Positions 208-63,445 of a DNA stretch of 64,000 nt are shown here, in pieces. Origin of the DNA: Tubulanus polymorphus (Eukaryota > Nemertea > Palaeonemertea > Tubulaniformes > Tubulanidae); NCBI RefSeq assembly GCF_964204645.1, contig NC_134034.1:12839962-12903961 (forward strand). Reading direction: 5' to 3'. The notes below the pieces were generated by a model that had not been told where the DNA came from, did no database searches, and saw only the letters and a list, made by a program, of their open reading frames with translations. Numbering within the stretch: the stretch's first letter is position 1; every line of letters starts with the position of its first letter. Made by a program: the position numbers and the translations under genes.

Positions 208-3200
208 CTCTCGTGAAGTTGACCTCCGAATCCCCAGATAAACGCGTACGTGAAAAGCGCTTTCACCGAGTTGATATAATTAGGGAAGTTTTCCTCTATG
301 ATCGCGCTCGATTGACTGCTCTGATAGCTGCGAGCGCTCCGCGACGAGTTACGCCCTCCACCTCCGCTCTGAGACGACCTCGGTCGTAACCGCGACGCCG
401 CACTACCAGCGGCGGTATTGTTATCCGATTCAAACTGAGCTACAAACAAAAATACCGAACACACAGAAAATCATGACGTCTGAAAGTTAAGTTAACCCTT
501 TCAGTGCGTCTACACCGCAGTGCAGTGTATAAATCAGTGATAGATTTTGGTACTACACTGCGCCGCGGTGTAGACGCAATATAGTGGTAATCCCGTTATT
601 CAACACACTAGGGTGGAATTTTTCAAAATCTTCAAATAATCTCGAGCACTATAGGGTCAGCACTGAAAGGGTCAAGTCAAGTTAAGATTTAAGAACGACT
701 CGAACCTTTTCTTTGCATTTGTTTTTCGAGTTCGTCCCGCAATAGATAACGTTCCATCAGCGCCGACAATATCTTCAACGTCGCCGACACCTGATGAATA
801 CCGGGCGTAGCCGCCGTAACAGTCCGTCCGTCCGATAGTGATAACGAACATTCTGCGTCGATGAACGCGAGAGTTTTAGCGAAAACTCGTAAACACAACT
901 CCTGAATTACGCGTAAACTGTAAAAACATTCGTCAATATTATTCATTAAGTTAGCAGGGTTCGCAAGACCTGGGGCCGGTTGCGTAGTCATGGCTTAGAC
1001 TTAAGACCAGTCTAAGACCAACTTAGTTCTACAGCCAATCTAACAACTTAAGACCAGTCTTAAGATTTAAGAACACTTTTTGACTTAAGTCATGACTGTG
1101 CAACTGGCCCCTGGTTTTATAGACTGTATTAACCCGGGGCGGTTAACTGAATTCATTTTCACTTGAGTTAGACCCCGGGTCAAAGTTTAAACCCCGTTTA
1201 TAAAACAAGCCCGGTTTCCTAGACTGGGTTTGTAAGTAATCCCTAGGGGTAATCCTTAATCCGTGTAACAACCCCCGTAGTAACAATGAGAAACCATGGT
1301 TATAACTGACGAATTTCAAAATGTTCCCAGGGACTATTTTTCTTCCACATCTATGAAACCCAGCCTAGGATTACAAAGCTGCCAAACTCTGGAAATGATT
1401 TTTTAAAAGGGGTATTTCATCAATGTGTTAAACTTGTTTGAACACTGACCACGATGACGTAAGCAGGTATCTATTTTTAGCCGGAGTACACCACGATTCT
1501 ACCAACGACTTCCAACTGTTAGCGGCGCCATCTATATGTATAACTTGTGACTTAGCGACGATCGCCGGTGAAGCGTTTTCTAAAGTCGACGTTTCAAAAA
1601 TTAAACTGATTGAATCTGAAAAACAACGCGAGACAGATATATATTACTGATCCTGTTCTTCTCTTGCTCGAATCTTGAGGAATACTGGTCAACGAATCTT
1701 GCGGAATACTGGTCAATGAATCTTGAGGAAGACTGGTCAACAAATCTTCTAAAATACTGGTCAACCAATTTTGAGGAAGATTGGTCAAGGAATCTCAAGG
1801 TATACTGGTCAAGGTATCTCAAGGTATATAGGTCAAGGAATCTCCAGGTATACTGGTCAAGATATCTCAACGTAAACTGGTCAAGGAATCTCCAGGTATA
1901 CTGGTCAAGGAATCTCCAGGTATACAGGTCAATAGGCTCAAGGTGAAGTTAGTTTTTACCTTGTAGAACGACGGTTGATCCGTTCGGTAATTTCAATCTT
2001 CTCTCATCGTCGAACACAGACATCATACCGTTGACCCAAACGCCACCTATATTCCCGTCCAATACGATCAGTTTCTGTATCGTATCCACGTCAGTCGTCG
2101 TTTGATTTTTACTCGTCGTTGTTTTATCCGTCTGCTGTTTGTCGCGATAAATTTCGGCCGATTGAATTTGAAACGCGGAATTTTTGAGTAAATTCGCGAG
2201 AATTCCCGTCTCCCAGACGCCAGCATCAGATGAGAATTCACCAAATAGCTACAAATAGATAAACAACACAAAATTCAACTTGATAACATTAACTCATGCT
2301 CCAAATTCTTTTTTTTAGATAAATCATATCCTTCCTTAGAAGTTATTGTGTTTACAGATTTATCAAGATTGACATAAATTCATTTCATGTAAATTAACTA
2401 GTTTAAAATGTAAAAATCAAATATTTACGCGCATGCATTAATACTTTCAGTTATCAAAATAACTTGCTAGAAGGGGTTATTTCTCCTAAAATTGAGATCT
2501 CCTAGCCGTAAAGTTCCCCTAGTTAAGGAAAGGAGGGGGAGCAAGGGGTTAATGCCCTTACCTGTGAAGTTGTAAACATATTCGGGTGTAGAATTTCGAT
2601 ATCTATCTGCGGATAATCTCGTGATGTTTTTCCCGTGTTATCGTTGAGAATATCGTTGTAAAGATTCTGCAGTCGGTTGAGTCTGTGCGACACGTTCCTC
2701 CATTTATTCATGTATTTCGTCATGTGCTGACGTTCATCTTTTACACCCCGTAAAACCTGTCAAATTCGATATCAATTCATAAATCAATCATTGAATTACC
2801 GGTTACAATTAGCAGGGTGGTGCCACTTCCAAATCCCCCCGAGTTTTCCCTCATTTTCCATGTGATTGCACTAAATTCCCTGCGTGAATCAGAGATATTT
2901 CTAGGTTTACGTGTTAAAATTCAATCATTTCTCATTGAATCGCGTATTGATAAAGAAACAATATTATAGCATTCCCAGAGTTTTCTAGGTTTTTTGGCAA
3001 AATTTGTCAAATTCACATTGATCTGCGATCCAGAACTATGGAACAGAGTTCAGAACAGTGGAACTGGGTCCTGAACGGTAGAACTAGATCCTGAACAGTG
3101 GAACTGGGTCCTGGACAGTGGAACTAGATCCTGAACAGTGGAACAGAGTTCAGAACAGTGGAACTGGGTCCTGGACAGTGGAACTGGGTCCTGAACAGTG

Positions 3201-5021
3201 GAACTAGATCCTGAACAGTGGAACAGAGTTCAGAACAGTGGAACTAGATCCTGAACAGTGGAACTGGGTCCTGAACAGTAGAACTAGATCCTGAACAGTG
3301 GAACTGGTTCCTGAACAGTAGAACTAGATCCTGAACAGTGGAACTGGTTCCTGAACAGTAGAACTAGATCCTGAACAGTGGAACTGGGTCCTGAACAGTA
3401 GAACTAGATCCTGAACAGTGGAACTGGGTCCTGAACAGTAGAACTAGATCCTGAACAGTGGAACTGGGTCCTGAACAGTGGAACTAGATCCTGAACAGTG
3501 GAACAGAGTTCAGAACAGTGGAACTAGATCCTGAACAGTGGAACTGGGTCCTGAACAGTAGAACTAGATCCTGAACAGTGGAACTGGTTCCTGAACAGTA
3601 GAACTAGATCCTGAACAGTGGAACTGGGTCCTGAACAGTAGAACTAGATCCTGAACAGTGGAACTGGGTCCTGAACGGTAGAACTAGATCCTGAACAGTG
3701 GAACTGGGTCCTGAACGGTAGAACTAGATCCTGAACAGTGGAACTGGGTCCTGAACAGTAGAACTAGATCCTGAACAGTGGAACTGGGTCCTGAACGGTA
3801 GAACTAGATCCTGAACAGTAGAACTAGATCCTGAACAGTGGAACTGGGTCCTGAACAGTAGAACTAGATCCTGAACAGTGGAACTGGGTCCTGAACAGTA
3901 GAACTAGATCCTGAACAGTGGAACTGGGTCCTGGACAGTGGAACTAGATCCTGAACAGTGGAACTGGGTCCTGAACAGTAGAACTAGACCCTGAACAGTG
4001 GAACTGGGTCCTGAACAGTAGAACTAGATCCTGAACAGTGGAACTGGGTCCTGAACAGTGGAACTGGGTCCTGAACAGTAGAACTAAATCCTGAACAGTG
4101 GAACTGGGTCCAGAACAGTAGAACTAGATCCTGAACAGTGGAACTGGGTCCTGAACAGTAGAACTAAATCCTGAACAGTGGAACTGGGTCCTGAACAGTA
4201 GAACTAGATCCTGAACAGTGGAACTGGGTCCAGAACAGTAGAACTAGATCCTGAACAGTGGAACTGGGTCCTGGACGGTAGAACTAGATCCTGAACAGTG
4301 GAACTGGGTCCTGAACAGTAGAACTAGATCCTGAACAGTGGAACTGGGTCCTGAACAGTAGAACTAGATCCTGAACAGTGGAACTGGGTCCTGAACAGTA
4401 GAACTAGACCCTGAACAGTGGAACTGGGTCCTGAACAGTGGAACTGTGAACTGTGGAACTGGGTCCTGGACGGTAGAACTAGATCCTGAACAGTGGAACT
4501 GGGTCCTGAACAGTAGAACTAGATCCTGAACAGTGGAACTGGGTCCTGAACAGTAGAACTAGATCCTGAACAGTGGAACTGGGTCCTGAACAGTAGAACT
4601 AGATCCTGAACAGTGGAACTGGGTCCTGAACAGTAGAACTAGACCCTGAACAGTAGAACTGGGTCCTGAACAGTAGAACTAGACCCTGAACAGTAGAACT
4701 AGATCCTGAACAGTGGAACTAGATCCTGAACAGTGGAACTGTGAACTGTGGAATTGGAGTCAGAGTATAAATAAAAGGTTCAAGAGTTTTGTAACGTACA
4801 TTAATCGTCTGTTGAATATTACGTCGTAAACCGGTTTCCATGTTCAACTGATCGAAGTCGTCTGCTGCTCCTGCTGCGTCTGCTGTTTCACCGTCAGTGT
4901 GTAGAGCGTTCATAGCACGAGCGAGCGTTTGATAACACGTCGTTTTACCGCTACCCGCCGCCCCTAATAGCACTATAGAGGGCGCCACTGATGACTGTAA
5001 CGTCGTGTATAACTGTAGAAT
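208..5021 (-). CDS. DNHD1: DNHD1 exons 43-48: AAA2 and start of AAA3
   Basis: Exons at 4800-5021, 2562-2756, 1960-2248, 1450-1615, 706-917 and 208-439. Exon 43 holds the AAA2 Walker A, GAAGSGKTTCYQTL. Exon 44 ends ILHPNMFTTSQ and exon 45 begins LFGEF, together matching the dynein NPKAxxxxQLYGxxD element. Exon 45 also has the Walker B-like LIVLDGNIGGVWVNGM and SVFDDERRL. Exon 46 has LENASPAIVAKSQ, the counterpart of the conserved ASPATVSRCG. Exon 48 has a Gly/Ser/Arg-rich insert then TYAFIWGFGGQL, matching the helix that opens AAA3. Intron 43-44 (2757-4799) is mostly a 1.7-kb minisatellite. The next exon lies beyond the left edge. Confidence 0.85.
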
Positions 5022-11000: not shown

Positions 11001-14000
11001 TTCGTTAACGGAACTTTCTCGCCGTAATTTCCTTCGATTTCAGTCGCTAACAGTTTATGAGCTGAAATCATCAATATCATTATATCAATATCGATAGGCG
11101 GCCAAGGAGGTTCTGGTTGGATAATATAAGAGTGCCACATGGTTAAAAGTTGAGGGTCGCCCCTATAATGGCAGCGGGAGAAGATGATGATGATGATGAT
11201 GATGATGATATCAACATCCAACAGCAGCAGCAGGTTTACAGTTCAACAACTGGGCTAGCTTAAATGTGGACTCTCTTCCCAATTCAACAGTTGTGGATTA
11301 GACACAGCCATTTCTATGTGGTGAATAGGAATGTAAGAGTTTTAGGGGCAGCAGACGCTGAAAAATGTGTTTGGTTAAAGTTAATCAGTTAAAATGGATG
11401 ACAATTGAAATGGCATTCTCAGTACAGTGTTTGTTCACCAACTGTACAAAGGACTTTACCAGTGTTCATGATGAACTTATGTGACTAGGGAGCAAGGGGT
11501 TTCAAGCCTGGATCCAGGAAGAACTCATGGGACTGAATCCAAGAAGAACTCATGGGACTGGATCTAGGTAGAACTCATGGGACTGGATTCAGGAAGGACT
11601 CATGGGACTGGATCTAGGAAGAACTCGTGGGACTGGATCTAGGTAGAACTCATGGGACTGGATTCAGGAAGAACTCATGGGACTGGATTCAGGAAGGACT
11701 CATGGGACTGGATTAAGGAAGAACTCATGGGACTGGATCCAAGAAGAACTCATGGGACTGGATCCAGGAAGAACTCATGGGACTGGATCCAGGAAGAACT
11801 TACCATTGATAGCATAATCAAGTGAACTGTTGACATTGTGCAGTTTAGACGGAGGAAGTTTAAACGTCAAGTTGTGAATTCCCGGGAACAGTTTCCGTAC
11901 GTACGGAATCAACGAGTCCGGATTACGTGAAATACTCATAACATCGATCAGTTCGCCGTCGCTGAGGAAATAAAATCTCGGGAATTCCCGCCTCAATCGG
12001 GCGTACACCGAGTCGAGATCTTTCAGAATCATCTCCTGTCACAAACAAACAAACATACCGGTATAACTTATTATAATTGCGAGAAAAATATTTTTTTTAG
12101 AACCCGCAATCATGAGGATAAACTAAGAGAGTAATGACATTTAAACTCAATTCTTTTTCAAAACTAAGAAAGTAGTGAAGTTTAGACTCAATTCTATGAG
12201 ACATTTTCAAAACTAAGAGAGTAGTGACGTTTAGACTCAATTCTATGAGCCATTTTCAAAAACTAAGAGAGTAGTGACGTTTAGACTCAATTCTATGAGC
12301 TATTTTCAAAATTAAGAGAGTAGTGACGTTTAGACTCAATTCTATGAGACATTTTCAAAACTAAGAGAGAAGTTACGTTTAGACTCAATTCTATGAGCCA
12401 TTTTCAAAATTTGAGTCATGTCACAACTCTCTTAGTTTTTCTCCAATGGGTTTTTTCTTCACGCAGACAGTTTGCATTAGTTAAAGCAGGTTGTATATTT
12501 ACCTCAGCTATAAGCAGTTGTTGTAGAGTGACCCTGGCGTGTTCTCCTTGCATCGGACGGATCGCGGTCACCGGCAGACGTCTCTTCGTACCGAAACTCG
12601 TCAACGACAAAATGGTCGCATCGCAAACAACCGAATCCATAAAATCCTAAACAGATTATTAATCAATTCTGAATTTATTCAAGTAAGATTTTGGAAGATT
12701 ACATGAATTCCCTTCACGAAAATATGTTACATTACTGTCTAAATAAACTCATTAACATATGCAAACTCAAATAAACTCATTAACATATGCAAACTCAAAT
12801 AAACTCATTAACATATGCAAATATACTCATTGATATATGCAAATTCATAAAAACTCACCAAAAATGTTTTATTCACGTCCTCAAATTTCGAACTCAATTC
12901 TCCGAGGGAACAGTAAACTTCGGGTACTTCAAATACTTTCAATAGGTATAACCACTGGAAATAGAGGCAATACAGGGTAGATCTCAACCTGACCGACTAA
13001 CTGTACAGGTATCCACAGTATGGGTTTCGGGTGTGGCTCAGTTCATAGAGCACTCGGGTCATATAGTTTCATGAAAATACCCGGGTAATTAAGTTTAAAA
13101 TAGCCTAGTTTGAAATCTAGAAATTTCTGTACCTTTTTCTGACATGTATTCCACAAATTGATCAGTTCTTCGAGTTCCTTCAGCGAGGTCGACCAGAATT
13201 CAGCTTGGACGCGATGATCTCCGAGATACGGTGATACTAACATACTCTCTATACAAACTCTACTCTCCTTAAAACATATAAAATCCACATTCATCAGACA
13301 CCAGAAATCAACTAAGTTAAATGTAAATCTGGAACTGTGGAACAGGATCCTGAATTGTGGCACTGAGTTCTGGACTGTGGAACTGGGTCCTGGACTGTGG
13401 AACTGGGTCCTGGACTGTGGTACTGAGCCCAGAATTGTGGAACTGAGTCCTGGACTGTGGAACTGAGTCCTGGACTGTGGAACTGAGTCCTGGACTGTGG
13501 TACTGAGTCCTGGACTGTGGAAGTGACTCCAGTCACTGAAGAGCTGGGTCCTGAACTGTGGAAATGGATCCTAAACTGTGGAACAGGATCCTGAATTGTG
13601 GAACTGAGTCCTGGACTGTGGAAATGGATCCTAAACTGTGGAACTGGGTTCTGAAATGTGGAGCTGTTTTGGGTATTACAAATTACCTGTAGTTGATATT
13701 TCAGTTGTTCTATATTAGTCAGTATATATAGTCTGTTCTGATCGATGTAAAGTTGTTTAACGGGAGACGCCGCTCTGGAGCTGTTGTCTCGAGCTGTTCG
13801 TAATTTTTCGACCTTCGTCATTTTGTGTTTTGCGGGAGTCGAATTCACTTCTATAGATAAAAATAAATCCAACGACGATCAATAAATCAGGACCAGTGAA
13901 ATGATTATCGGTTGAGTTTGACATGTAGCGATCTAATCGATATTCCATTAAATGGTTCTAAGATTCAACTTACCGAGAGCGGTACTGAGTACATTTCATA

Positions 14001-31744: not shown

Positions 31745-31995
31745 GGTGGGTTTAATTGGACTCCTGGATCCAGTTCCACAGTTGTGTGGGTTTAATTCGA
31801 CTATGGATCCAGTTCCACAGTTATGTGGGTTTAATTCGACTCTGGATCCAGTTCCACCGCTGTGTGGGTTTAATTCGACTCTGGATCCAGTTCCACCGCT
31901 GTGTGGGTTTAATTCGACTCTGGATACAGTTCCACAGTTGTGTGAGTTTAATTCGACTCTAGATCCAGTTCCACAGTTGTGTGGGTTTTAATGAA
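31745..31995. repeat. 39-bp minisatellite, intergenic
   Basis: Six copies with GGTTTAATTCGACTCTGGAT and CCAGTTCCACAG; the latter is the GAACTGG family core in reverse orientation. Confidence 0.9.
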
Positions 31996-34864: not shown

Positions 34865-35798
34865 TTCTGGACCCCAGTTTCACAGTGGTTCTCTGGACCC
34901 AGTTCCACAGCTGGTTCTCTGTACCCAGTTCCACAGTTCTGGACCCAGTTCCACAGCTGATTCTCTGTACCCAGTTCCATAGTTCTGGACTCGGTTCCAC
35001 AGTTGGTTCTCTGGACCCAGTTCCCCAATTCTGGACTCGGTTCCACAGTTGGTTCTCTGTACCCAGTTCCACAGCTGGTTCTCTGTACCCAGTTCCACAG
35101 TTCTGGACCCAGTTCCACAGCTGGTTCTCTGTACCCAGTTCCACAGTTCTGGACCCAGTTCCACAGCTGGTTCTCTGGACCCAGTTCCCCAATTCTGGAC
35201 TCGGTTCCACAGTTGGTTCTCTGGACCCAGTTCTACAATTCTGGACTCGGTTCCACAGCTGGTTCTCTGTACCCAGTTCCATAGTTCTGGACTCGGTTCC
35301 ACAGTTGGTTCTCTGGACCCAGTTCCACAGTTCTGGACCTGGTTCCACAGTTGGTTCTCTGTACCCAGTTCCACAGTTCTGGACCTGGTTCCACAGTTGG
35401 TTCTCTGTACCCAGTTCCACAATTCTGGACTCGGTTCCACAGTTGGTTCTCTGGAGCCAGTTCCACAATTCTGGACTCGGTTCCACAGCTGGTTCTCTGT
35501 ACCCAGTTCCATAGTTCTGGACTCGGTTCCACAGTTGGTTCTCTGGACCCAGTTCCACAGTTCTGGGCCTGGTTCCACTTCCATAGTTCTGGACTCGGTT
35601 CCACAGTTGGTTCTCTGTACCCAGTTCCACAGTTCTGGACTCGGTTCAAAAGTTGGTTCTCTGTACCCAGTTCCATAGTTCTGGACTCGGTTCCACAGTT
35701 GGTTCTCTGGACCCAGTTCCACAGTTCTGGACCTGGTTCCACAGTTGGTTCTCTGTACCCAGTTCCACAGTTCTGGACTCGGTTCAAAAGTTGGTTCT
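34865..35798. repeat. 0.9-kb minisatellite downstream of the 34.3-kb gene
   Basis: About 30-46-bp units built from CCCAGTTCCACAGTTCTGGA and GGTTCCACAGTTGGTTCTCT. Same core as the 3-kb array but inverted. Produces at least six long spurious open frames on both strands. Confidence 0.95.
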
Positions 35799-35945
35799 CC
35801 ATTATCTATTTATTCACATGCACAAATATGCAAATCACTTTGTTATAAATGTTCAATCATCACGTGATCCACTTCATCTTTCTTCATACTTCAAAATATT
35901 CTATTTTGTGTTGAAATTTAATATGATGTATATATATTTCTATCT

Positions 35946-40527: not shown

Positions 40528-43500
40528 TTATCTAAATCTATCGACTTTAATCGTCAGGTTTCGTTCTTCTCGTTTCGGTCCGTAAACCACGCCCACTGAG
40601 CTGTCAATCACTGTCTCACTGTCAGTTTCGGCAGCATCCCTTGCTTCTCGCCTGTGAAATAAACATACAAAATATTAATATATCGATTTCTATGAATTTC
40701 ATTATAGTTATTATACGAAATTAATCTCTTTTCGAATATTCAAATCATGATAAATGAATACATTCTCCTTATTAAGTACAACCTGAATTTCTCTCTCTCG
40801 CAAAAAAATTATTTCGATGATTTGAAATTAACTTCAGTTTGTGATATGATTTGATTCATTTAAAAGATGGAGTCTCTTTTGATCGAAGTTCAGTTTAAAA
40901 AGAAGATATTTCGGTAATGCTTCAATATGGTGTAAAATCGATATTTTAGTTCAGTTGCCCATCTTTGCTATACCTATTCACACCTTATATCAGGTTCATA
41001 TGTACTAACAAAACTGACCGAGTTATGACACTGGATCCAGTTCCATAGTTCTGATAAGATTAGTTCACTTTCATTGAGTCAAATCTCAACTCACAACTAT
41101 TTAACTGCATTTCCTTTCAATTCAAGTTGAAATAGCCTGGGACTGAAAATAAACTTCATTATTTCGAGGAATTCATCGATTTTACCGTTTTCTTTTTTCT
41201 TCCGCCTGCAGTTTTAATTGTCGTCTGCCGAGATCGTCGTCAATAGTCGTGAAGTCGTCTTCATCCGTCGGGTCGTCGGTCAAATCCTATCAACGACAAA
41301 CGATTATCTGAAACGCCGGTCTCTACAGCGCAAAATTGATTCTATATGATCACATAGAAAAATATGGCCGCCATACACAAAATGGCTAACGAACCTTCAC
41401 TGCTATGATATCTCCATCTCTGATGTAATAAGGCGACTGTTTTACGTTCACTTTCGGAATCTTTTGTCGTTTGCCTTTAATATTTTTCTGAAAAGAAAAT
41501 TTCTGCTATATTTTCCCAGAATTAATTAATACCCGAATTATCAACTGCATCGCCGGTAAAACTTACGTTAATTTGAAAATCGATTTTCTCGATTTTCTGC
41601 CATTCGTATCGATGTTGATGATATTTAGCTATCGATATTTGTTGCTGCGGCAACGAACAATGCGCCGCTATTCGATCGACGAGTTGATTCGGACTCGTTC
41701 CGCGACTCGTGTCCCAAATAAACTCCGGGTAAACTTTGTACGTACGTGTTCCGGGAACTCGCAACCAGACGTTCAATATCAATTCGCACGAGCTGCGAGC
41801 GAAAAATAAACAACATTTTGGAAATATTTCCGCTAAGGAGAATTTATACCCGGAATAATAACCGCCACGGACTGCGGTCGGTTTAGAGTTGACTGGTGAC
41901 AGAGTGACAATTAAAAGTTTGTTGTTACTATGGTATTCATCCACTGTTCATCTTTAACCAACCATTGCACAGCTGCAGCCCCTAGCCCAGCCGGCGTCAG
42001 ATGCATCGTCATGACTAAAAGTGGTCTTTAATCTTAGGTTAGATTGGTTATAGATTTAGGATGGTCTTGGACTGATCTTAAATCTAAGCCATGACTGCGC
42101 AACCAGTAACCGGTCAAGAAAGTCTCAAGAAGGTATGGGATAAGAATACTGAGGCCTAGTAGTTGGAGAGGTTTAGTTGAGGAGGGTTCAAAGCCAAGGG
42201 GGTCTAAGTTGAGAGGGTCTAGTTGACGGGGTCCAAGTCGAGGGGGTCTTATCGTGATATTTACCTCAACTGTTCAGCGTGCTGAAGTATTTGGACTCCT
42301 ATTTCGCTGGAACTTGTCACTTTTTGTCTCCTAAAAACATAACGAGTTCAAATCAAACGGTGACCAGTAGCAGACGACACCGCTGAAAGGTGAAGGTCGT
42401 GTGGAACTCACTGCAAATTCTGATGGTTGCAGCGTAGAACGGACTTTAATCGATCGGTTTCGATCAGTCGCAGACGCAAATAATCGAACATCGGATACGT
42501 CTGTTCACTCATCGCCGGTAGCAACGATATTCTCTCTTTTAATTCATCGACCGACGATTCTTTACGAACTTCGACAGTTCCTAATTTACACGGTTTTAAA
42601 TCCGGTTCAACGCTACTCCTGCCATACAGATAATCTAAAGATAAATCCGGTTTAACGTTACTCCTGCCGTACAGATAATCTAAAGATAAATCCGGTTTAA
42701 CGTTACTCCTGCCATACAGATAGTCGTTTAACATACCTTGTATTCCTGTAGTAATCCACGACAGTAAACCCGGAGTTGAGTCAGTTGATGGTTTTACCGT
42801 AGGATATAACCACACGGGAAGCTGAACGTAACCCTACAATCGTTAATTACAGACATAGTAGCGCCCTCTTTATGTACGCGAACCGATCACTTTTTTTAAT
42901 GGATATAATTCTACCTTCGGGGGAACGCGTCCTTCCTCGAGTAAAACTGTGTCGCCGTTTTTCATCTGCGATTCCGATAGTTTAGCGTCGAGATCGTCCA
43001 ATATGGCGGCCGGTTCTCCGCACCAGTTCGCCAGTCTCAGGTGCCACGCGGTAGCTGCAGAGAGTGTCAGAGTAAGGAGTTACAGTTTTCTAATCGTGAA
43101 ACTCGGGTTCGATTAACTTACATTCGATGTTTAGTTTTCGTAGGACGGTTTTCAGTAACGCGTCGACGGTCATATCTCGCTCCATCGTTAAACTAAATCT
43201 CTCCGTAGCAGCGCCACCTGCTGGTGGTGGTGGTGATATATTCACTATAATCTATACCACAAAAACAATATAGAATTCAAAATCATTTACAACGACGAGG
43301 AAAATTAGAGAGAGAGAGAAGTGATGAGTGCAGTGGAATCTACCTGATTATGTGTCGGTGGTTTTCCAGGTTCTAGAATCAGACAAGTCGTAGCCGCGAT
43401 TCCTGCGTGCGTTAGACTTAAATTTTCATGTACTGAAACAAGAGATAAACATGAACATGTTTGCTGCGCATGTTACATGTTTGCTGTACATGTACATGTT

Positions 43501-57945: not shown

Positions 57946-60900
57946 GTATCGTAAACTTAACGGTCCATTCAAATCGATCGGTGCTCGTAAATTAGAGGTC
58001 TGCTGTACGCCAGGATTTCATCATGTCTTACAGGAAAGGCTGTCTTACTGGTTGACTGCTTTGAAATATACGATTTTGAAGTTAGCTGATAAGAAAGTTG
58101 ATTTAAGCGTCGATGCAGGTATGGTAGTCAATGTATAAACTCTCTCTGTTGCTCTCCTCTTCTCTTTAACTCTCTCTCTCTCTTTCTCTTACACAGATTC
58201 GATTACGAAATGTTCAAAACTTGTTACGAATATCACGGCCTCCACGGAATTTCTGCTATCAACCGGGAATCTCGTTTCAAAATCGGGACTTGGTCTCATG
58301 CAGGTAAACGTTGTTGACCTCGCGGTCGTACGACGGTATCTAGTCTCATCCGTCCGCAAAAATGGGATATCGGCGGCACTCACCAGATGGCTCGACAAAA
58401 CAGTGGGTCATTCTCGTAATGGAAATCGGCTCGTTTTCAAGGAAATTTGAACTTGATTTTTAAGCTTCCAAATCTGAAAATTATCAAATGATTCATCGAA
58501 TACATTCCCTTTCTCACCTGACTCGGTGTCTGGCGTTGATCTCACTGAAAATTTATTTACTAATCGGAAAAGCTGACGAGGATTTAGTTGAAATTGAAAC
58601 ACGCTAACCCACTAGCGATCCTGGCGGAATCCTGGCTTGCCACAGTAGCCTTGCTGGTATCCCATTGAAACATGAAATAGTTTGGAGTTACTTCAGAATT
58701 TTGAATTTATATATTTGTGCTGATTTCGGTTGTGAAATGCCCCCCCCCCCCTGAATTTTAGTTTTCGATAAATTTTTTTTCAGCACTCCGGTTTAGCAGT
58801 CGTCGCCGATAAACTGAATTTCATGCGATATTTATCTCATTTCCGTTGCGTTCATCGGGGAGGATTCTTCACGACGATGAGAACGACGGCCGTTCGTAAA
58901 TTACTTCCCGAGGCGTGGGGTACGTTACACTTCGGCATCCAGTTTCAAATTTGCGAGTTAACATTTGACTCTTAGAGTTATAACATTGAAAATAAGCTAA
59001 TTTGAACTCGGAGTTAACTGTTACATCTGACGGAACCTGCTCGTTACTGCCGGTGATAATCATGTTAAAACTGTTCGTATTGTTGTAAAGTGTGTTTGTT
59101 GTTTTGTTTGTAGGATTTATGTGTCCGGTTCACACACCAGACGGAACCCCGTGTGGTCTGTTGAATCATATGAGTGCAAATTGTCAGGTAAGTTTCAACA
59201 AGTTACCGAATAAACTTGCGCCCGAGTTTCGGAGATATCTTTGCGCACAGTTCCGCAGATCCTGGTTTAGATTTGATTCTAATCTATGGTTGTTAAAATG
59301 TTAAGTTTGTTAATTTTACGCGTGTAGATTCAAACCTAACCAACTGTGGAACCAAATCCAGAGTCAACTGTGGAACTGGATCCGCAGTCAACTGTGGAAC
59401 TGAATCCAGTCAATTGTAGAACTGAATCCACTGTGGAACTGGGTTCAGAACTGTGGAACTGGGTTCAGAACTGTGGAACTGGACCCCGAACTGTGGAACT
59501 GGGTTTTGACCTGTAGAACTGGGTTCAGAACTGTGGAACTGGGTTCAGAACTGTGGAACTGGGTTCAGAACTGTGGAACTCGGTTCAGACCTGTAGAACT
59601 GGGTTCAGAACTGTGGAACTGGACCGCGAACTGTGGAGCTGGGTTTAGAATTGTGGAATTGGATTTAGAATTGTGGAACTGAGTTCAGTGGTATTTGTGT
59701 AAATAGAGTTGAATGTTTTAATGTTTTGTAGGTAGAGAATAAAGAACAGCCGTCTGCTCATCTCCCTCATCTGCTCTGCTCACTCGGAGTTTTACCGATC
59801 GATAGTCAAACAAACGTCTCTTATAAACAATGTTATCCCGTTATGTTGAACGGTAAAATGGTCGGCTGGTTGTCTAGCGACATCGCTCAACGGACGGCCG
59901 ATCAACTTCGCACGATGAAAGTAACCGGATACATGAAGGTAAAGGCAGTGCGGGGTTTGGGGTACGAGGGAGCGTGGAAGGGTGTGATCAGAGTTTGGAA
60001 ACGACTTGTGTTACTTGCAGAGTTGAGAAGTGTTGAATTATATAAACTACTTTCTCCGTTCTATCCAAGAGAGATCTGATATAAACTTTGCATCAAATTT
60101 GTGCAACGTCCAACAAACCTTCATCACTTTCCCGAACTAGATGCGGTGGTACCCCGGGAGACATTTTTCTTTGAAAATAGATTAAGGTGCCATGATGTTT
60201 GTCTGAACCATCAATTTTAGACAGATATTCACCATTTGTGAAAACTGTGTTCATCCAGAATCCTTATTATATTGTATTGTATTGTATTGTAGGTGGCGTC
60301 TTCGATGGAGATATGTTTAATACCGATGTCCGAACACCGCTCTCAGTATCCGGGGTTATATCTGTTCACGACTCTCGCTCGCATGATTCGTCCAGTTATG
60401 AATCTCGCTCACAAAAAAATCGAAATGATCGGATCTTTCGAACAAGTTTATCTCGATATTTGTGTCGTTGCGTCTGAAGGACATCGAGGGGTACGTAATC
60501 GACCGGGCGAGCGCCGGTTTTAAAATCAACCCCGGAAACATTTCTCATTATAGTTATGAGTTACGGGCAACCTTCATGTGGCAAGCGAGGATCCGCTAGG
60601 TGTCACTAGTGGCACTCGGTTACCGCGCTTCAATTACTTATATATTTCAATTAGATTGAAATTTCTCATCATTAACCCTTTCAGTGCGTCTACACCGCAG
60701 TGCGGTGTATAAATGGGTGATGGATTTTGCTAGTACACCGCACTGCAGTGTATTGATGTAATTAGTAATTATCTCTATTAAAAAATGGCAGCACCTGTGA
60801 AACATAGTGAAATACTAGTAACTAATGATACACCGCACCGCAGTGTAGACGCACTATAGTGGTATTCCCGTTATTAAACACACTAGGGAATTTTTAAGAA

Positions 60901-63445
60901 TTTTTAGATTATCTTCAGCACTATAGGGTACTATTAAGTCAGCACTGAAAGGGTTAAATCTATACCTTTTTTACACTGAGTGGGAAAGTGAATTTCTTTT
61001 CCAATCAATGACTTATTTGATTTGGAAGCCTAACAATCAAGACTTGTATGATTATTCAATGACGTACGGTGTCTATCTATAAAACTCAGATCCTCGTTTT
61101 ATTTTCAGAAAACGACCCATCAAGAGATCGACGAATGCACGATGTTGAGTTGTATCGCTAGTTTAACTCCGTATTCAGACTTCAATCAAAGTCCTCGAAA
61201 CATGTATCAATGCCAGGTGAGTTATAATGGGTCCGGGTGCCTGAAACGATTAACCGAGCAGAATGATGATTAAAAGGCGAATCAGAACTAGTGGCTCCGT
61301 CTTTATTAGGTAAACTGAAGCGTTATAACGCGCCTGTTTTTGCTGTGAGAGACGTTGAGCTATTTCAAATGTTGACTGAACTTTCTCTGACTGCTGCTGC
61401 TTCCTACTGATTCTAGGACAATTGCCCCTTGAATAAAATCCTTTTTAATCTGGATTAACACCACTTATGAATCATTTTAATCTTAAAGTAAGCCACAAAG
61501 ATAAAACAAAGCTAACCAACTTTAGCTAATAAGTGCAGCTAATTATTGTAGGACTGATTTAAAGTGTTCGGGGGTAATAATGTCCTGATAAGGCTACTGC
61601 AGCTGCTGCTGCCGCTGCTGCTGCCGCTGCTGCTGCCGCTGCTGCTGCCGCTGCTGCTGCCGCTGCTGCTGCTGGTGCTGCTGCTGCTGCTGGTGCCTCT
61701 GTAGTTGCTATTACTGCTGCTGCTGCTGCTAGTGCCTCTGTAGTTGCTATTACTGCTGCTGCTGCCTCTGTAGTTGCTATTACTGCTGCTGCTGCTGCTG
61801 GTGCCTCTGTAGTTGCTATTACTGCTGCTGCTGCTGCTGGTGCCTCTGTAGTTGCTATTACTGCTGCTGCTGCTGCTGCTGGTGCCTCTGTAGTTGCTAT
61901 TACTGCTGCTGCTGGTGCCTCTGTCGCAGCTACTGCTGCTGGTGTTGGTTGCAGATGTCGAATAGCTAACAATTGACTGGTAATGTGTTTATAGATGGGT
62001 AAGCAGACGATGGGAACGCCGTGTCACGCTCTTCAAGCTCGCAGTGATAATAAACTCTATCGGATACAGACGCCTCAGGCTCCCGTCGTTCGACCGACGA
62101 AATACAACGAATACAACATCGATGAATATCCACTCGGCACTAACGCAGTCGTAGCTGTTATCTCTTATACTGTAAGTATCACATCTACATCCATCATCAC
62201 CTTCATACAATTACAATATGTGTTTATTGCAGAATTATGATATGCGGTATTTGTTGCACCACTTGCAGGGTTTTGACACATGATATCACTGATATGTGTT
62301 GTATATTTTGCTGGTCATGATGTGATATTTGTTGTATCACTTGCAGGGCAATGATATGTGATAAGTATTGTATATTTTGCAGGGTTATGATAAGTGATGT
62401 GATATGTGGTGTATATTTTGCAGGGTTATGATATGCGATAAGTGATATATGGTGTATATTTTGCAGGGTTATGATATGAGATAAGTGATATGTGGTGTAT
62501 ATTTTGCAGGGTTATGATAAGTGATATGTGTTGTATATTTTGCAGGGTTATGATATGTGATAAGTGATATGTGTTGTATATTTTGCAGGGTTATGATATG
62601 CGATAAGTGATATGTGTTGTATATTTTGCAGGGTTATGATATGTGATAAGTGATATGTGGTGTATATTTTGCAGGGTTATGATAAGTGATATGTGTTGTA
62701 TATTTTGCAGGGTTATGATAAGTGATATGTGTTGTATATTTTGCAGGGTTATGATATGGAGGATGCGATGATATTGAGTAAGAGTTCGTACGAACGCGGT
62801 TTTTGTCACGGTTCGATTTATAAAACGGAGTTTATCGATTTGAAAGCGCTCGCCGGAGAACGCTACAGCGGAATTATTTATTTATTTGGTAAGTTCCATT
62901 CGCTAGCAGCAGCAGCAGCAGCAGCAGCAATTAATTTCATTTTGTCATTTTAAACCATCAGTCTTTCACTTGTCTCTCATGAATCCATGGTTCAAGGGGT
63001 TCGAATCCTAGTCAATAGTAGTGGATCCTCTCTGGCCTCTACCCTTAATGAATATGAAAAAGAAACCAAGATTCTGCTATATGAGTTGTTGGAAATGCCG
63101 CTCGGCAGGTCGGGGGATGCCAAAATGGCAATAATTACATCTTGTGGCTTTGCTATATTCAACCCGTACTATCTTGCCTATTGTTAACCATTGCCACCGA
63201 TATTTCAGTCAGCTGTATTAAGACCTGTGAAAGTGTGTTAACACAGCACAGCACACCACTACGCGGTATATAGGCATTTATCGATTAGCAGAAGACCGTC
63301 TGCTTTTCATTGTAGTTCCTTTTCATCTGTATAGGCGTCACCACGTACTTGCATCATCAAAATTAATTTAAGCTTATCTGGTACGGGGAGTGCACAATTG
63401 TTTTGGAGCGGTTAAGGGATGCTAATTATGACTGTATATATGAAG

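Follow-up and report, generated by a model that had tools for sequence, protein, structure and literature searches.

Tandem copies of a 3′ splice junction in POLR1B of the ribbon worm Tubulanus polymorphus probably form a mirage-type minisatellite

Choice of the AG at which an intron ends is commonly explained by local sequence and by a rule that takes the first AG downstream of the branch point (PMC1431707). Tandem repeats lying over exon–intron boundaries have been described in amphioxus under the name mirage, in the globin genes BflGb6 and BflGb9 (PMC3087553) and in Adh3 (as cited in PMC3087553), and troponin C and PGBD5-related repeats are mentioned in the same animal (PMC3902484). Mirages can affect both 3′ and 5′ boundaries and are reported not to disturb regular splicing (PMC3087553, PMC3902484). 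Here we describe an array of 3′ splice junctions in POLR1B, an essential gene for RNA polymerase I, of the nemertean Tubulanus polymorphus. It lies in a 64,000-nt stretch (hereafter the window; assembly GCF_964204645.1, contig NC_134034.1, forward strand, positions 12,839,962 to 12,903,961), and coordinates below count from the first base of the window. Judged by its sequence features, the array fits the mirage class.

The exon 5′ of the array (61995–62171, forward strand; placed by translation and the match to human RPA2, boundaries by eye) ends in ...VISYT in phase 0. It is followed by an intron of 575 nt (62172–62746, forward strand) that runs from GTAAGT to TTTTGCAG and consists mostly of junction-derived repeats. 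The original prediction held that ten copies of the acceptor junction, nine of them decoys, stand here at a spacing of 35–44 bp. Ten exact copies of TTTTGCAG/GGTTATGATA are indeed present (the slash marks the splice boundary), the last being the real site ahead of the POLR1B exon, and the steps between them (41, 43, 43, 36, 43, 43, 43, 36, and 36 nt) are slightly tighter than predicted. TTTTGCAGGGTTATGATA occurs exactly ten times in the window, with the final intron base at 62382, 62423, 62466, 62509, 62545, 62588, 62631, 62674, 62710, and 62746. Across the whole 268-Mb assembly, the junction 18-mer is found at ten places, all in this array, and at none in the reversed control. The array extends further 5′ than had been recognized, and the count of nine decoys stands for the exact ones only. 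Four older units were overlooked, three that keep the AG (62232, 62268, and 62346) and one dead copy with a mutated AG (TTTTGC/TGG, at about 62311). These diverged units occupy 62233–62382 (forward strand), and the intron has 13 CAG acceptors. The span 62383–62746 (forward strand) is filled by nine young units, which are 36, 41, or 43 nt long and run from GGTTATGATA to TATATTTTGCAG; with the junction at 62382, they make up the nine exact decoys plus the real acceptor. The initial 10–12 nt of the real exon (62747–62888, forward strand; placed by homology, 3′ end by eye) recur in every exact decoy.

Decoys and real site are locally very similar. The decoy at 62545 cannot be told from the real site for 50 intron and 12 exon bases (62 nt), nor that at 62710 for 50 intron and 10 exon bases; neither has a mismatch over −40 to +10. 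Unbroken matches of the nine exact decoys to the real junction cover 14–50 intron nt and 10–12 exon nt, and four of the 12 AG-bearing decoys have no mismatch over −20 to +3. Over 50 nt, the four units nearest the donor carry 13–30 mismatches versus 0–10 in the nine exact decoys. Divergence has no clear order along the array among the latter, and the nine young units comprise seven distinct sequences (counted by eye).

The flanking exons, when joined, align without a gap across the junction to human RNA polymerase I subunit RPA2 (7ob9_B; E 5.7e-74). The match identifies the gene by sequence as POLR1B and, because it runs gap-free over the junction, marks the AG at 62746 as the coding acceptor. 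Spliced in frame (phase 0), all 12 AG-bearing decoys run into a stop 4–16 codons on, before the real exon begins; the nine exact ones read GYDK, GYDMR, or GYDM and then stop, after 4–5 codons. The original prediction was thus right that each exact copy holds an acceptor and the first exon codons (GYD), that the decoys soon run into stops, that the sites are near-identical with the last one coding, and that the gene is POLR1B. Its suggestion that noisy splicing to the decoys may feed nonsense-mediated decay stays conjectural, and comparable amphioxus repeats are reported to leave splicing undisturbed (PMC3087553, PMC3902484). Its account lacked the tandem repetition of the junction, the parallels elsewhere in this genome, and the published precedent of mirages.

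We consider it very probable that the array is a minisatellite of the mirage type that began at the 3′ junction of a short intron and whose last copy is kept in use by selection on the protein. A stretch of ∼40 nt, comprising the intron end and the first 10–12 exon nt, would have been duplicated in tandem repeatedly. Since the protein stays intact only when the last copy is spliced, earlier copies would have become intron; the oldest would then have decayed while younger ones stayed almost identical to the real site. The ancestral intron was probably short: the first degenerate copy, TTTATTGCAG/AATTATGATATG, lies 61 nt past the donor, a plausible ancestral length, and 62172–62232 (forward strand) is the probable remnant of that intron. 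The repeat itself may be selectively near-neutral, with any use of decoys presumably removed by nonsense-mediated decay.

To place the array in its genomic context, the whole assembly was searched for three TTTTNCAGG at gaps of 22–52 nt. This gave 102 matches versus 41 in the reversed control (here and below, match counts of pattern searches are overlapping matches, not arrays). They form ten arrays; 100 of the matches were listed, and the remaining two fit the array on contig C40. By eye, most of the 41 control places belong to short arrays or to two interior families of dispersed repeats, and one overlaps locus L065. An acceptor followed by an open frame stands at the end of six of the ten arrays. 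The grounds for these six array-exons are homology across the junction in POLR1B and a BTB gene, weak homology in a YIPF3-like gene, and open frames or a presumed gene identity in a HECTD1-like gene and loci L062 and L074. A search with TTTTGCAG only returned 33 matches (control, 22) in four arrays, three of them among the six. A broader search yielded 188 matches versus 75 in its reversed control, with at least 19 array regions among the matches listed, and was the source of a Furry-like and a NALCN locus. HECTD1, YIPF3, and Furry are used here as presumptive gene names.

In a recheck by tandem-repeat ends, which covered 24 loci, no motif-bearing array was found at L060 and L064; L064, where one acceptor precedes an open frame, was rejected as an array. 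Sixteen loci were not counted (L051, L053, L054, L057, L059, L060, L061, L063, L065–L069, L073, L076, and L077). Open frames of 112–285 nt leaving L054, L059, L061, L063, L066, L069, L073, and L076 were judged from their translations to be chance, though a missed exon is possible.

The BTB gene is a firm parallel of the same build. It has six junctions at 56–57 nt, one without an AG, with 6–17 exon nt copied and the first copy 69 nt past the donor, and a BTB domain spans the junction (E 2.1e-20). The YIPF3-like and Furry-like genes are likely parallels. In the former, found on a 98-kb contig, 25 junctions were found by motif in an intron of 1399 nt, 23 of 24 steps measure 52 nt, and the first copy is 99 nt past the donor. 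One of its decoys is identical to the real site from −193 to +40 (233 nt), and 22 of 24 have no mismatch over −20 to +3; its matches to Yip1/YIF1 are weak (E 1.4e-4 and 2.8e-4, below family cut-offs). By eye, TTATGTT is common to intron and exon at the break in this gene, the trace expected of slippage at a short match. The Furry-like gene has four acceptors with 11–17 exon nt copied, the first 490 nt past the donor, and a PF14228 match (E 8.2e-10) that stops short of the junction.

The HECTD1-like gene, L062, and L074 are probable parallels. In the HECTD1-like gene, 84 AG sites lie ∼41 nt apart in an intron of ∼3.5 kb; the last exact TTTNCAGG falls mid-array, the exon lies beyond, and 14–15 exon nt are common to 83 of the 84 other copies. 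Its ankyrin matches, the only ones, are upstream of the junction. L062 has 28 exact motifs, for the most part at 26-nt steps, with 11–14 shared exon nt and an open frame of more than 1100 nt. L074 has nine acceptors 57 nt apart, 11 shared exon nt, and an open frame of 260 nt. NALCN has three acceptors, and homology spans the junction (E 2.6e-66).

All seven placed loci measured (HECTD1-like, NALCN, Furry-like, BTB, L062, L074, and POLR1B) are in the outer 10% of their contigs and six are in the outer 2.5%. Many other listed arrays from the broader search also lie near contig ends, so this location looks like a general trait of tandem arrays in this genome.

Several observations weigh against these readings. 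No exon was seen at four of the ten arrays (L063, L065, L076, and L077). Uncounted arrays are followed by frames (L066, 285 nt; L054, 244 nt; L063, 223 nt) similar in length to those of the HECTD1-like gene (154 nt) and L074 (260 nt), and an open frame alone is therefore weak proof of an array exon. In the HECTD1-like gene, no family or PDB match covers the junction, and the real site over −20 to +3 is matched exactly by one of 84 other copies, with 53 one base off. Because 83 of the 84 have one or more mismatches to it in this stretch, a local splice cue may act there. Several L062 decoys read open into the exon, leaving the true acceptor not fixed. Homology at L074 amounts to insignificant amine-oxidase hints (E 0.048 and 0.26). 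The two NALCN decoys share just 3 + 2 bases with the real junction; this makes the case doubtful, and the NALCN array may be another kind of repeat. At POLR1B, a yTnAy motif was not found within 60 nt of the real acceptor, and we infer use of the last site from the protein alone.

Tandem copying of 3′ junctions is only tentatively proposed as a recurrent route of short-intron growth in this genome, mostly near contig ends and tolerated through a choice of 3′ site by closeness to the downstream exon. We keep this broader claim well short of an even chance because NALCN is a doubtful case and, for half of the six array-exons, the support is an open frame or a presumed gene identity. The arrays nonetheless bear on how acceptors are chosen. 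A POLR1B decoy is indistinguishable from the real site between −50 and +12, and a choice of the last site would therefore have to rest on something outside that stretch; a YIPF3-like decoy is identical from −193 to +40, and there the cue would have to lie further off. The last site is predicted to be the one mainly used, and the cue beyond these limits would most likely be the body of the downstream exon together with its 5′ splice site (exon definition). For the first-AG-after-branch-point rule to apply, the branch point would then need to fall within the final unit or the one before it, which would make every full unit a complete 3′ site. If recurrent copying is true, these loci are natural constructs that set as many as dozens of complete 3′ sites, alike in their local sequence, against one another; the winner is the site most distant from the 5′ splice site, contrary to a simple first-AG rule. 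Because decoys match the real site for 62 nt in POLR1B and for as much as 233 nt in the YIPF3-like gene, the arrays are a natural test of 3′ splice-site choice, in which ordinary RNA sequencing would give a direct measure of the contribution of position and downstream exon. The copying of junctions also indicates a simple route of intron lengthening.

The early stops raise another explanation, that the decoys are a regulatory device in which partial decoy splicing leads to an early stop and destruction of the RNA, so that copy number tunes POLR1B output. Stops lie upstream of the real exon in every AG-bearing decoy of POLR1B (12 of 12), the BTB gene (4 of 4), the YIPF3-like gene (24 of 24), and the HECTD1-like gene (83 of 83). 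In human ABCA7, moreover, a donor-side intronic repeat leads to unit retention and a premature stop, with more such RNA under cycloheximide (PMC5954066). However, stops in units of this kind are expected by chance, and in two of three Furry-like and one of two NALCN decoys the stop comes only within the real exon region, while some L062 decoys have none. Amphioxus mirages are reported as leaving splicing undisturbed (PMC3087553, PMC3902484), and no common function was recognized among the affected genes. We regard regulation by decoys as unlikely.

Less probable still is an assembly artefact, in which a single junction was falsely multiplied. Tandem repeats are error-prone, and an aberrantly assembled mirage has been noted in a draft genome (PMC3087553). 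The seven distinct sequences among the nine young units, the greatest divergence in the four farthest units, the 14.3-Mb length of the contig, and similar arrays at other loci all argue against false multiplication, although the POLR1B copy number could be off. That a plain minisatellite merely lies beside the exon, with acceptor likeness by chance, is suggested by the richness of the window in such repeats and by the four of ten acceptor-motif arrays with no visible exon at the end, but it is contradicted by units that hold the exact intron end and exact exon start (10–12 nt in POLR1B, up to 40 nt in the YIPF3-like gene) and is the least credible account.

Within the window, tandem arrays with a period of at least 15 nt number 45 after merging and occupy 12,696 bases (20%). 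Several share, by eye and on either strand, a core like CTGTGGAACTGGGTCC (3039–4741, 13329–13666, 31746–31988, 34866–35799, and 59341–59688). A 45-nt tandem repeat on the minus strand (42597–42722) is open in one frame and is probably a 15-residue protein repeat. In the preceding POLR1B intron, a CTG-rich array (61593–61955) terminates in an acceptor-like GGTTGCAG; the coding acceptor, TTTATAG/ATGGGTAAG, follows downstream. Elsewhere, two Rpb2-domain matches on contig C8 (L020, 4524933–4528430, and 4634764–4635261) lie in open frames of 1177 and 1019 residues, which greatly exceed those of the other Rpb2 matches, and are perhaps of foreign origin. The assembly gave no match to COX1 and none to the GFP family, although the GFP-family search drew a blank in the control genomes as well.

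A donor-side search gave 26 matches in five arrays, below the reversed control (47 + 65), and thus no excess. Three of the five donor arrays were inspected, and among them L072 (contig C1, 811900–813000, minus strand) has a 79-codon open frame, with no family match, that ends in AG/GTAAGT, with five such donors 39 nt apart. It suggests, as a hint only, a mirror case on the donor side. At L063 (contig C6, 939300–943200), an acceptor-like array of 45–46-nt units ends near an apparent donor (by eye) of a gene on the opposite strand, which is outside the array.

Compared with mirages, the POLR1B repeat likewise spans an exon–intron boundary, with 10–12 exon nt inside the unit, keeps splice signals in many units (13 CAG acceptors), and shows, by mismatch counts, the mirage pattern of concerted evolution among inner copies with diverged ones at the cluster boundary. 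Units in this genome are 26–57 nt versus 150–160 bp in BflGb6 (PMC3087553) and 10–72 bp in Adh3 (as cited in PMC3087553), and motif counts reach 25 and 84 versus 3–6 units in BflGb6 (PMC3087553). Outside amphioxus, no acceptor arrays of this build were recognized in a partial survey of titles and abstract openings. The 25-bp repeat of the variable-number tandem repeat in intron 18 of human ABCA7 similarly takes in the splice site of the neighboring exon, and retention of its units causes a frameshift and premature stop (PMC5954066). There, however, the repeat is on the donor side, involves the GT end only, and is polymorphic in people (PMC5954066), whereas here the acceptor and exon bases are repeated. 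Splice signals within a gene are also moved in intron gain by tandem duplication of AGGT-bearing exon sequence, as in the Rogers model (via PMC3087553) and the potato RdRp case (PMC4974935). In contrast to Rogers-type intron gain, in which a formerly unbroken exon acquires an intron, the array sits inside one intron, between the donor and the coding acceptor; an existing intron lengthens and no new one is seen. The feature reported in the original prediction is real and well described, and it is a known kind of repeat, of which this genome holds extreme examples.
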